Below are positions 11,940 to 60,354 of a stretch of 61,011 nucleotides of DNA, piece by piece. The notes beneath the pieces are model-generated. The model was not told the origin of the DNA, made no database searches, and saw only the letters and a program-made list of their open reading frames with translations. The position numbers and the translations under genes are program-made. Source of the DNA: a virus. The stretch is taken from the IMG/VR virus record IMGVR_UViG_3300007538_000027, positions 1 to 61,011 of that record; one strand, written 5' to 3'. The number at the start of each line of letters is the position of its first letter. The first letter of the stretch is position 1.

Positions 11940-11960
11940 GAATAGTTATCGTTGAAATTT

Positions 11961-11983
11961 AGCCCACCTCTGGTGGGTTTTTT
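11961..11983 (+). terminator. Rho-independent terminator
   Basis: Stem CCCACC/GGTGGG with TCT loop and six T residues. Nearly the same terminator, including the downstream TTCATACCT, is at 60299. Confidence 0.85.
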
Positions 11984-12001
11984 CATACCTATAATTTACC
12001 C

Positions 12002-30979: not shown

Positions 30980-31226
30980 CATTTTATCTTAATTTTCATT
31001 AAGGGTGGATCATATCATCTTCCGTTCTGGAAGTCGGACGCTTTTTCATTTAGTGACTAAACTAAACTACTTCCTGTTATTAAGCTTATTCGCATAAGCT
31101 CAGGTGATCTCTGAACCTTCCTACTCTGTAGGCTTGGCTGCTGATTGCCATCATCATTACATGTTAAGGTTTCCAGCAATTCATCCAATTTTCAACTTAC
31201 GTTCCCATAAGAGGCTGCATCAGTTT
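30980..31226 (-). ncRNA. Group I intron in nrdA, no internal ORF
   Basis: 247 bases between nrdA exons that break the reading frame. On the minus strand it shows the group I core: a P-like GAATTGCTGGAAAC, a Q-like AATCAGCAGCCAAGCC, an R-like GGTTCAGAGATCACC and an S-like GATGATATGATCC able to pair with R (GATCA/TGATC), plus an AGCTTAT/ATAAGCT hairpin. The 5' exon ends in T and the intron ends in G, as self-splicing requires; CTGT of the exon can pair with GCAG near the intron start. Removing it restores NLCQET. No homing endonuclease is inside. Confidence 0.88.
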
Positions 31227-32502
31227 ACAGGTTAGAACTATAAATCTTATCTTTGTGTGGAGTATGGCGGTTTAATTCATCTGTTCTATGCAGATAAACC
31301 TGACCAGACTCTTGTCCTTGTACTAAGGCTTCAATTGCCAGCTTACGTGCATTAATATACTTACGTGGTTTAATTGACTTCTCATACTCTTCATATAGGT
31401 TATCAAAATTAGTCTGGTCTCCTTCGTACATAGCTTCGTATAATTCAGGTGAGTCCGCATAACTAACTAACATCCAATCTCTATTCTGATACACTTTCTT
31501 AGCGAATAGTCTATTGCTACCAAAAGAGTAATGAATACCATCGACCCTTACTTTAGTTGCAGTCTTCTTGCTCTTCCAAGTAAGAATATCCATTACCTCT
31601 GGGTCAAGACAGTTAAGATGCATAGTGGCACTACCACCGCGGGAATTCTGTAGATTAGCTGCCACAGCACTCTCAGTCATCTTGTAGTAAGGTCTCTTTC
31701 CCTGATGTATTGTAGTACCACCACGAACACCATCTCCCTTACTGCGTGTCTTTAAGTGAGAACCAATACCAGCACTTGCGCAGGTTAACATATATGCTAT
31801 GTGGTCTCCCGCAGCCAATGAGTCAGCCGTATCATGTGTGGTGAACGTAGCACAACTGGCGAATGATCGGCTCGGTGTGCGAAGATTAGTCATAAATGGA
31901 GTTGGTGCACAAATCTTCTTATCGCTTAAGTAGTGGTAATACTTAATAACATCCGTCATTCGTCTATCTAATGGCATATTCTTCATGTTAGCCATTGCCA
32001 TCCCCATATACATAAACTGAGGGGACTCTAAGGCAATATTCTTAATACGATTACGCAAAACGTACTTATCACTAATTTGTTTTATTTCTGGGTAAGAAGA
32101 CTTCAAGTCTTTAGAATGATCTATTACTTCTTGTAGTTTCTCAAAATCTTCTTCGCTATAAGGTAACTTCTCCCAATAGCCTTGACCTTCCATATTATCA
32201 TGATGTTGTTTTAGTGTAGGAATCTTTTTGAAACCACCGAAAGCTTCTTTGTATAAATTACCTGCAAGCACTCTACCAGCTAACATGAAATGTTTTTCAT
32301 CGAACTCTTCCACACAAGCATCAATAATAGCTTTATCTATATCTCTGGTAGTACATTTATCGCTTAATAACTTCAATGCTTTAAAAGATATATCAGACCA
32401 ATTCACTTTACGGGCTGCTGCCCATCTCATCTTCTTATTAAATTTCTCTGCGTCAAAGGGAACACTAGTTCCATCACTTTTAATTACAGTGGTAATACTC
32501 AA
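31227..32502 (-). CDS. nrdA: Ribonucleotide reductase large subunit, exon 1
   Basis: 425 codons plus one base from a TTG, 7 bases behind GGAG. It starts with an ATP-cone-like N-terminus (VIKSDGTSVPFDAEKFNKKM) and has the SFASCATFTT region with the first active-site Cys and the GSATMHLNCLDPEV segment. It ends ...KIYSSNL plus the first T of the cysteine codon that, in E. coli, encodes thiyl-radical Cys439. It reduces ribonucleotides to deoxyribonucleotides with NrdB. Translation of unspliced RNA would stop immediately at TAA. Confidence 0.93.
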
Positions 32503-59164: not shown

Positions 59165-59353
59165 ATGAAACATCCTCAATACATAGCATGTAAACGTGAT
59201 GGTACGTTTGAGTTTAGAAATGGTGAACCTGTACTTAAACAAGAAGGTGATGTGGCAATATTTAATTGCGCAGACTCCTTGGATTTAAAGTTAATCAGTT
59301 TAGCTGAAGATTATTTCAATTATAGTATTGACAATAATAAGAAAGAAGGTTAA
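59165..59353 (+). CDS. Small hypothetical protein
   Basis: 62 residues, three bases after the previous gene. Last protein-coding gene before the tRNAs. No recognised family. Confidence 0.6.
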   Translation: MKHPQYIACKRDGTFEFRNGEPVLKQEGDVAIFNCADSLDLKLISLAEDYFNYSIDNNKKEG

Positions 59354-59372
59354 TATACATTATAGAAACAAA

Positions 59373-59446
59373 GTTCCGTTAGCTCAGATGGATAGAGCAA
59401 CAGCCTTCTAAGCTGTGGGTCGAAAGTTCAAATCTTTCACGGGATA
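59373..59446 (+). tRNA. tRNA-Arg, anticodon TCT
   Basis: Cloverleaf with acceptor GTTCCGT/ACGGGAT (two G-U pairs), D arm GCTC/GAGC, anticodon stem ACAGC/GCTGT with loop CTTCTAA, and T arm GAAAG/CTTTC with TTCAAAT. Anticodon TCT reads AGA/AGG. The discriminator A is followed by CGCA, so CCA is not fully encoded. Confidence 0.9.
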
Positions 59447-59447
59447 C

Positions 59448-59523
59448 GCAGTATTAACTCAGTTGGTAGAGTGTCTGATTTCCAATCAGAATGTCGAGAG
59501 TTCGAACCTCTCATACTGCTCCA
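59448..59523 (+). tRNA. tRNA-Gly, anticodon TCC
   Basis: Acceptor GCAGTAT/ATACTGC, perfect 7 bp, D arm ACTC/GAGT, anticodon stem TCTGA/TCAGA with loop TTTCCAA, T arm GAGAG/CTCTC with TTCGAAC, encoded CCA end. Anticodon TCC reads GGA/GGG. Only one base (59447) separates it from tRNA-Arg, so both are likely cut from one precursor. Confidence 0.93.
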
Positions 59524-60298
59524 ATTTTAAAACACCGTCAGTACTAGACAACACCATTGAGATATAGTACAGTTTTACTCAGTGTAGTGTGAGAAGGTGT
59601 TTTATAAATAGTGAGGATACCCCACCCCCTATCTGTGATACCATAAGAAATTGCGACTATGGTTAGAAGTTTAAATGGCAAACAATGTAAGGTACGTTCC
59701 CTCTCACGATCACAGTGATGACAAATACCTTCTATACAACACTTCTGATGTGTATAAACTCAAGACGTATAGTAGATAGAAAGCGCCATACAACGTGAAG
59801 TTGGTCCCTCGTAGAGGTGGTTAGCGAAAACACTAGGACATAACCCTGCCTAGTATAAAACGGTTTTGGGTATGACGCTGTAGTTGAAATTGTCACCATT
59901 CTGAGAAGTTCTGCCATGCAGGTAATTTGGACTAGTCCTACAGATAATTTCTGTGGCTGAGATCGTACACTAGATGTGTGGTCGATAAACTCTATCTTAT
60001 TTAGTTCACCAATCTTAAGGGTGTTTAAGAATAAGACACGTAAGCGATCATGTGAACAAAGAACGCAACACCGATTTTCTCCCATTATTAGAGGTTGGTC
60101 GGTATATAAGTGGCAACCTTAGTAATGACTCAAAACTTTATAAATAACCTTGGAAACGTCCTCACTTGCGAGTTAGGTTCCTCTACTAAGCTCTATTATA
60201 AAGTCAGAAGTAAGACACTGAGAATGTCTAGGTAGACGTGCCGAACAATTGAGTTCCACTGAAGACAGGTTAGCTTCAGGTATTGTACTCATAATATT
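59524..60298 (+). ncRNA. Large structured RNA candidate downstream of tRNAs (GOLLD/ROOL-like)
   Basis: 775 bases without a credible gene, starting at the end of the tRNA-Gly and ending at a terminator. Pairings visible by eye: AAAACACC/GGTGTTTT (59529-59603) enclosing GTACTA/TAGTAC; CCATA/TATGG (59641); a long-range AGCGCCATAC/GTATGACGCT (59782-59879, 9 of 10 pairs) enclosing ACTAGG/CCTAGT; TCTTATT/AATAAGA (59995-60036) crossing GTTCAC/GTGAAC (60004-60057), a possible pseudoknot; CTTTATAA/TTATAAAG (60136-60203); AGACA/TGTCT and CTGAAG/CTTCAG (60259-60279). Size, phage setting and tRNA neighbour match GOLLD and ROOL ornate RNAs, but sequence identity to either is not checked. Confidence 0.7.
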
Positions 60299-60321
60299 AG
60301 CCCACCATAGGTGGGCTTTTT
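60299..60321 (+). terminator. Rho-independent terminator
   Basis: Stem AGCCCACC/GGTGGGCT with ATA loop and TTTTT. Close copy of the terminator at 11961, including the downstream TTCATACCT. It ends the tRNA/structured-RNA unit. Confidence 0.85.
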
Positions 60322-60354
60322 CATACCTGTAATTTATACTCACCTCTCATAAGT

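Follow-up and report, generated by a model that had tools for sequence, protein, structure and literature searches.

A modular phage RNA beside two tRNA genes shares modules with the most abundant ICP1 transcript and has relatives bearing ToxI-like antitoxin units

Background

ICP1 is the main phage of epidemic Vibrio cholerae, and its most abundant transcript comes from a gap between two genes. The passages on this long noncoding RNA (lncRNA) in the report that described it give a length of about 800 nt, which is likened to that of GOLLD and ROOL, and assign no function (Barth et al. 2020, PMC7567579); the transcript has stood without one since 2020. The corresponding part of a review states that an lncRNA near lysis genes recurs in related vibriophages with very divergent sequence (PMC9040626), and the lncRNA passages of both papers mention neither sequence homologues outside vibriophages nor a structure. 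High abundance during infection has been shown for ICP1 only (PMC7567579). Large phage RNAs beside tRNA islands, namely GOLLD and ROOL, have remained puzzling for more than ten years. Here we analyse positions 59524-60320 of a 61-kb phage fragment (IMG/VR record IMGVR_UViG_3300007538_000027; its full 61,011 nt are called the window). This stretch follows two tRNA genes and had been predicted, from its letters only, to encode a large structured RNA of the GOLLD or ROOL class or of a new class.

Two other described systems are relevant to this locus. The expanded pseudo-ToxI RNA of Pectobacterium phage PhiTE, a noncoding imitation of the type III antitoxin ToxI, suppresses ToxIN in infected cells (PMC3475682), and in RNA anti-CRISPRs (Racr) a phage carries a solitary copy of the repeat of a host defence RNA as a decoy (PMC10651486). 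All solved type III antitoxins are pseudoknots of the H-type (PMC5086642).

Results and discussion

A conserved RNA of interchangeable parts

The stretch encodes a real, conserved and structured RNA of about 800 nt that is composed of interchangeable parts. As predicted, it is free of genes: no annotated-like or conserved gene was found in 59524-60320, where the longest plus-strand open reading frame (ORF) has 48 amino acids (aa). The longest minus-strand ORF, of 117 aa (59732-60085, antisense to the RNA), exceeds 497 of 500 shuffles (3/500 by chance), and its frame is not conserved in the related locus L007, where the homologous region is interrupted by about 560 nt of other modules.

By blastn against phage records, five pieces that make up 35% of the stretch have counterparts in Shewanella phage 1/4; the share for Shewanella phage 1/40 is 28%, and identity is 92-93%. 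Metagenomic phages and ICP1 also gave matches to blocks of the stretch. In both Shewanella phages the homologous region lies directly 3' of tRNA-Gly and tRNA-Arg. The neighbouring proteins of the window are only 57% and 42% identical to those of the Shewanella phages, whereas the RNA blocks are 95-100% identical, and one 46-nt block, module D below, matches phage 1/40 at 46/46 positions. Near-identical RNA blocks beside proteins of 42-57% identity point to unusual constraint or to recombinational exchange of blocks.

Modules A to F, all on the plus strand, can be delimited in the window RNA, and several of its helices covary in homologues. The covariation counts come from modest numbers of distinct sequences of related phages, and the permutation values given here are to be read as strong but not as independent probabilities. 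Module A (59528-59604) is closed by the long-range helix TAAAACACC (59528-59536) with GGTGTTTTA (59596-59604). A long-range helix had been proposed from the single sequence, and the counterparts of this one in relatives covary: different versions of 6-12 bp (8-12 bp in most) occur in nine phages and, with arms aligned by hand, cognate arms scored 181 against 136±11.7 for permuted arms (3/20,000). Module B (59634-59688) is the near-identical block CTGTGATACCATAAGAAATTGCGACTATGGTTAGAAGTTTAAATGGCAAACAATGT with the hairpin ACCATA/TATGGT, conserved in 1/4, 1/40 and L007, and module C (59738-59784) is a conserved block that includes AACACTTCTGATGTGTATAAACTCAAGAC.

Module D (59831-59876) is an H-type pseudoknot, with stem S1 formed by ACTAGG (59832-59837) and CCTAGT (59849-59854) and stem S2 by ACCC (59843-59846) and GGGT (59868-59871). 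A covariance model, R1, built with stem 1 only, detects module D at nearly every locus within the RNA region, and its best match elsewhere is no better than E 0.5. The loop-to-tail helix S2, which is outside the R1 model, changes in concert among 13 distinct sequences, with versions ACCC:GGGU in the window, ACCAC:GUGGU, ACCUC:GAGGU in ICP1, AUUGC:GCAAU in 1.193.O and GUCAC:GUGAC in CoeS_P1. Permutation gave 0/20,000 for S2 (14/20,000 with one representative per arm type) and 1/20,000 for S1. The pseudoknot that had been raised as a possibility is present at 59832-59871 with both stems covarying; phage 11895-B1, with a module D devoid of stem 2, is an exception.

Module E (60037-60068) comprises a hairpin, CACGT (60037-60041) with ATGTG (60050-60054), its conserved loop AAGCGATC and, following it, AAAGAACGCAA; three of the five hairpin pairs are changed on both sides among five phages. 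Directly 5' of module F lies a stem (60135-60204) of ACTTTATAA (60135-60143) with TTATAAAGT (60196-60204), which had been noted as an 8-bp pair and is really 9 bp long. The same place holds a perfect ACCTTG/CAAGGT in 1/4 and ACCTA/TAGGT in L007; a formal permutation test of this stem with six phages was not significant (2812/20,000). Module F (60202-60249) contains the hairpins AGACA (60213-60217) with TGTCT (60225-60229) and GGTA (60231-60234) with TGCC (60239-60242). The second of these is paired in 6/6 phages and has two pairs changed on both sides (UA, UG, CG and GC at one position, GC/AU at another).

Folding energy was dropped as evidence for a structured RNA. It is unremarkable against shuffled sequence (z -1.0 on the plus strand, -2.0 on the minus strand); thermodynamics alone proves nothing here, and the case rests on homologues, not on a single-sequence fold.

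Comparison with GOLLD and ROOL

The RNA resembles GOLLD and ROOL (PMC12286853) in size, phage origin, tRNA neighbourhood, structural richness, abundance and the lack of an explained function. Membership in either class, one of the two ideas of the original prediction, did not survive a search with the Rfam covariance models: GOLLD and ROOL gave no match to the stretch even at E<=10 with permissive filters, nor any match in relatives of the window RNA. The sole matches in an Rfam 15 scan of the window were tRNAs and one group I intron, and relaxed thresholds added only chance matches, nothing credible, in the stretch or in 11 relatives. A further difference is that the window family is modular, with gain, loss and reordering of modules and no universal core found. 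There is no universal 3' domain of the GOLLD kind: block F occurs in the window, 1/4, L007, ICP1, L010 and 1.084.O and is absent from 1.193.O, 1.063.O, qdvp001 and R16F. Conservation and covariation uphold the prediction of a large structured RNA beside tRNAs and, together with the negative GOLLD and ROOL searches, favour its alternative of a new class. To judge from these comparisons, the RNA family is undescribed and, in its architecture, a new class.

Relationship to the ICP1 transcript and family architecture

Module F is the 3' block common with ICP1. It matches about 70 ICP1 records (ICP1, 87.5% over 48 nt), and the match sits in the gene-free gap of about 1 kb between ORF140 and ORF139 (gp140-gp139). 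The ICP1 RNA also contains the module D pseudoknot (L005 3701-3747, E 2.5e-7), and through modules F and D the window RNA falls within an ICP1-type lncRNA family. The locus is of the same type, a gene-free stretch with a 3' terminator, flanked by tRNA or small genes on one side and by lysis or late genes on the other, with RNAs of 0.8-0.9 kb; the window reaches 0.7 kb past the RNA, and the lysis genes of this phage lie out of view. The ICP1 RNA, of about 0.9 kb, has its own predicted promoter (TTGACA-18-TAAGAT upstream) and terminator. It differs in that ICP1 has no tRNAs and that window modules A, B, C and E are absent or too diverged there, with other modules in their stead. On the strength of the shared modules, the window RNA is a relative of ICP1's most abundant transcript.

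RNAs of this family, 0.6-2 kb long, occur in about 20 phages, for the most part large Vibrio and Shewanella phages. In ICP1-like phages the 0.6-2 kb of gene-free DNA comes after small genes, often tRNA-Arg(UCU)/tRNA-Gly(UCC), with lysis or membrane-protein genes downstream. In several phages the island contains or adjoins an HNH or T5orf172 endonuclease gene. All-against-all comparison showed the RNAs to be mosaics of modules of about 40-200 nt, some blocks being common and others missing. The window shares most modules with L007, 1/4 and 1/40 and, by blastn, only F with ICP1, L010 and 1.084.O. Gain, loss and rearrangement of modules mark the family, and module order differs between qdvp001 and CoeS_P1, 1.187.O and S4-7, 1.161.O and S4-7, and L007 and 1/4. 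An IMG/VR scan with a gapped pattern for module D returned three chance matches, none with another module, and a scan for another 3' module returned chance matches in unrelated viruses.

Some modules of relatives occur beyond this family's usual setting. One module of the qdvp001 RNA (L013 2638-2724) recurs at 84% identity on V. alginolyticus plasmid NZ_CP082321 (L040 2501-2588), in a gene-free 1.7 kb beside a replication gene; several V. alginolyticus plasmids have a copy in such a gene-free stretch, and any annotated toxin is far away. The module AACCTGTAACAAGGTCGAGTCCGTGACGG, within which GGTCGAGTCC resembles a tRNA T arm, is common to Vibrio phages, the T4-like coliphage HX01 and 60-kb Vibrio phages beside tRNA-Gly (L031 about 1500-1545, L034 1501-1531, L022 2628-2667); the version of the T4-like coliphage had no match in E. 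coli genomes.

ToxI units in related phages

A repeat array directly before toxN is the textbook ToxI layout. The family module AGGTGATACGCTACCTTAAGTGCGAAGTTAAA, found also in T4-like Acinetobacter and Yersinia phages, matches 36-nt plasmid repeats. On E. coli plasmid pNMEC-O75B, 5.6 copies of the repeat are arrayed immediately ahead of a ToxN/AbiQ-family toxin. The qdvp001 RNA starts with another unit, distinct from the first, whose match is an array of 5.9 copies of a 38-nt repeat that immediately precedes ToxN on plasmid pSBP3 of Shewanella baltica. Both plasmid arrays are true antitoxin arrays. A model built from these units, R2, was run over 246 kb. Its 30 strong matches (E <= 3e-10) fell without exception within toxN-linked arrays or phage RNA/tRNA islands, and the sole other match was weak (E 0.21, L018 411). 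Units in family RNAs were found in R16F (L018 1122, 3009), qdvp001 (L013 2459, 2987) and PWH3a-P1 (L015 3079), at E 1e-12 to 1e-14. By sequence and predicted fold, these three relatives contain genuine ToxI units.

The ToxI core sequence with its pseudoknot is present in L013, L015, L018, L028-L030, L042 and L046-L049, and the pseudoknot pairs change together, from UGC:GCA in E. coli ToxI to CGC:GCG and CAC:GUG in phages. CGC:GCG, seen in units of Vibrio, Acinetobacter and Yersinia phages, is the same compensated change (U9C/A25G) as in the PhiTE pseudo-ToxI (PMC3475682).

IMG/VR scans detected solitary ToxI units between the tRNA genes of phages that are large (247, 149 and 147 kb); the surrounding 6-12 kb gave no ToxN-like match. 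The same scans detected complete toxI-toxN operons in two other contigs. Solitary units beside or between tRNA genes stand at L046 (11216-11253, minus strand), L048 3592-3629, L049 (6558-6595, minus strand), L028 1501-1537, L029 1506-1542 and L042 63-99, T4-like Acinetobacter phages among them; no toxN-like match was found in the DNA examined around those of L042, L046, L048 and L049. It seems that RNA antitoxin mimics regularly reside in phage tRNA islands. Two stable RNAs of T4 were compared as well. The 5' part of rnaD (species 2 RNA; L038 1554-1672, minus strand) contains GTCGCTACCGGTAAGT, 15/16 identical to the Shewanella baltica ToxI repeat, and has a local ToxI score of 14 against 7.8±1.4 in shuffles (1/200); a second pseudoknot stem is not evident, and R2 reports nothing there. 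No relation to the modules was found for rnaC.

A possible decoy function and its rivals

The ToxI copies in other family members suggest that the family RNAs are strings of decoys against toxin-based defence. That such modular RNAs are antitoxin-like decoys neutralising host RNA-regulated toxins is the explanation we favour, tentatively, at close to an even chance; for some relatives it is well supported, and for the window RNA we infer it. The phage RNA, noncoding and some 800 nt long, is probably co-transcribed with the two tRNAs upstream of it and ended by the terminator at 60299-60317. Each of its pseudoknot or hairpin modules would mimic the RNA that an RNA-binding defence toxin of the host takes as its ligand. 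Candidate targets are type III toxin-antitoxin endoRNases of the ToxN kind, plus others. When the phage shuts off host transcription, the short-lived host antitoxin would decay, and the abundant phage RNA would hold the toxins bound so that infection continues. It follows from established work, with PhiTE as the precedent, that a phage RNA with enough ToxI could keep ToxN inhibited at that point. The remaining modules, including pseudoknot D of the window, may act likewise on other toxins, and phages may exchange modules according to the toxins encountered in their hosts.

Module D has the H-type fold that an antitoxin-like decoy would have, as in ToxI and CptI, and complete ToxI units occur in relatives of the window RNA (R2 E<=1e-12). 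The differences from ToxIN/AbiQ-type loci are that the window lacks tandem repeats, a toxin gene and a ToxI unit, and that the stems and loop 2 of module D are longer than those of ToxI. PhiTE likewise places a ToxI imitation in an intergenic locus, as a short repeat of one unit, whereas here single units of different kinds join many other modules in one long RNA. The principle is that of Racr, except that what is imitated, in the cases identified, is the antitoxin of a toxin and not a CRISPR repeat, and that several kinds share a transcript.

Several observations weigh against a decoy function. A ToxI unit of the window RNA's own was rejected: the best local score, 9, is below the shuffle mean (10.6±1.3), and R2 has no match. 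The window shows neither a tandem array of about 34-38-nt repeats upstream of toxN nor any ToxN-like sequence. Host counterparts of the window modules were sought on plasmids, and no module matched any plasmid at E<=10; the bacterial comparison covered plasmids and E. coli genomes only, so the toxins for modules A-F are hypothetical. Scans of bacterial genome contigs with the module F pattern and with E. coli ToxN gave no match. The H-type pseudoknot is a common fold and by itself no sign of an antitoxin. The family RNAs carry their ToxI units as single copies, while the known ToxI antitoxins depend on more than a single repeat, with about 2.5 required in ToxI-Pa (PMC5086642), and the wild-type 1.5 repeats of PhiTE gave no protection (PMC3475682).

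The chief rival, which we consider unlikely, is that this new class of large ornate RNA acts as GOLLD and ROOL may, its copies assembling into an RNA-only cage or scaffold, with the variable part, ToxI included, as cargo or tolerated insertion. Such a role would suit a phage RNA of similar length that adjoins tRNAs and is very abundant in ICP1; it would also suit the retention, GOLLD-like, of 3' block F by several members whose 5' part varies. The covariance models of neither class match, however, no block is universal (qdvp001, 1.193.O, 1.063.O and R16F are without F), and module reordering is hard to square with one rigid quaternary structure. Less probable again is a regulatory RNA for adjoining lysis genes, a leader, antiterminator or antisense RNA that times or inhibits lysis. 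In ICP1 and relatives the RNA is directly upstream of the lysis cluster (PMC9040626), but a terminator separates it from the downstream genes, the next genes in the window and the Shewanella phages encode small zinc-ribbon-like and unknown proteins, and unrelated phages have modules within their tRNA clusters, a long way from lysis genes.

We disfavour as very improbable the view that the stretch is debris left by a tRNA and homing-endonuclease island, made up of tRNA genes in decay, fragments of introns and scars of recombination that do not function as an RNA. The HNH or T5orf172 genes in or beside several islands and the unremarkable folding energy would fit debris; blocks far better conserved than the adjacent proteins, compensatory changes and strong expression in ICP1 would not. 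A protein encoded by the 117-aa minus-strand frame is scarcely credible, for all its length relative to the shuffles: other modules break up the homologues at the junction following module C, conserved blocks run past both ends of the frame, and the ICP1 transcript has the plus sense of the module.

The decoy function admits a wider formulation, held with somewhat less confidence than the function itself: multivalent counter-defence RNAs would lie beside or inside tRNA islands and direct exchangeable antitoxin-mimic modules against many toxins at once, with the ICP1 and window RNAs as examples and solitary ToxI units as the minimal form. If so, RNA counter-defence, a matter of single cases so far (pseudo-ToxI, RNA anti-CRISPRs), would come to include a modular family, and phage tRNA islands may house RNA antitoxins too. 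The type III antitoxin units in mosaic relatives also offer a specific, testable function for the ICP1 transcript. The ICP1 homology, the modularity and the ToxI-bearing relatives go beyond what had been read from the sequence alone.

Transcription signals and neighbouring features

The RNA body (59524-60323, plus strand), defined by homology to phage relatives, starts directly after the tRNA-Gly (UCC) gene (59448-59523, plus), which is itself immediately preceded by tRNA-Arg (UCU) (59373-59447, plus). Both genes are genuine, and the same pair precedes the RNA in Shewanella phages 1/4 and 1/40 and in Vibrio phage 1.193.O. A promoter-like TTGACA-17-TAATAT (59328-59356, plus; 10/12 matches) lies upstream of the tRNAs. 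It is weak, the count of such sites in the region not being above that in shuffles; this predicted promoter is the probable start of a tRNA-tRNA-RNA transcription unit, and a single unit of about 960 nt is plausible.

The strong terminator foreseen at the 3' end was located: an intrinsic terminator, AGCCCACC-ATA-GGTGGGCT plus a T run (60299-60323, plus), with its hairpin at 60299-60317. The terminator region (60297-60328) has a second copy, 88% identical, at window positions 11959-11990, and L007 has a similar region 3' of another gene. A related tail, TTTTCTTTTACCTG, comes after the RNA's terminator in ICP1 and the Shewanella phages. Elsewhere in the window, the group I intron (30987-31238, minus strand) matches Rfam RF00028 at 66 bits, and two more are found in the relative L007.
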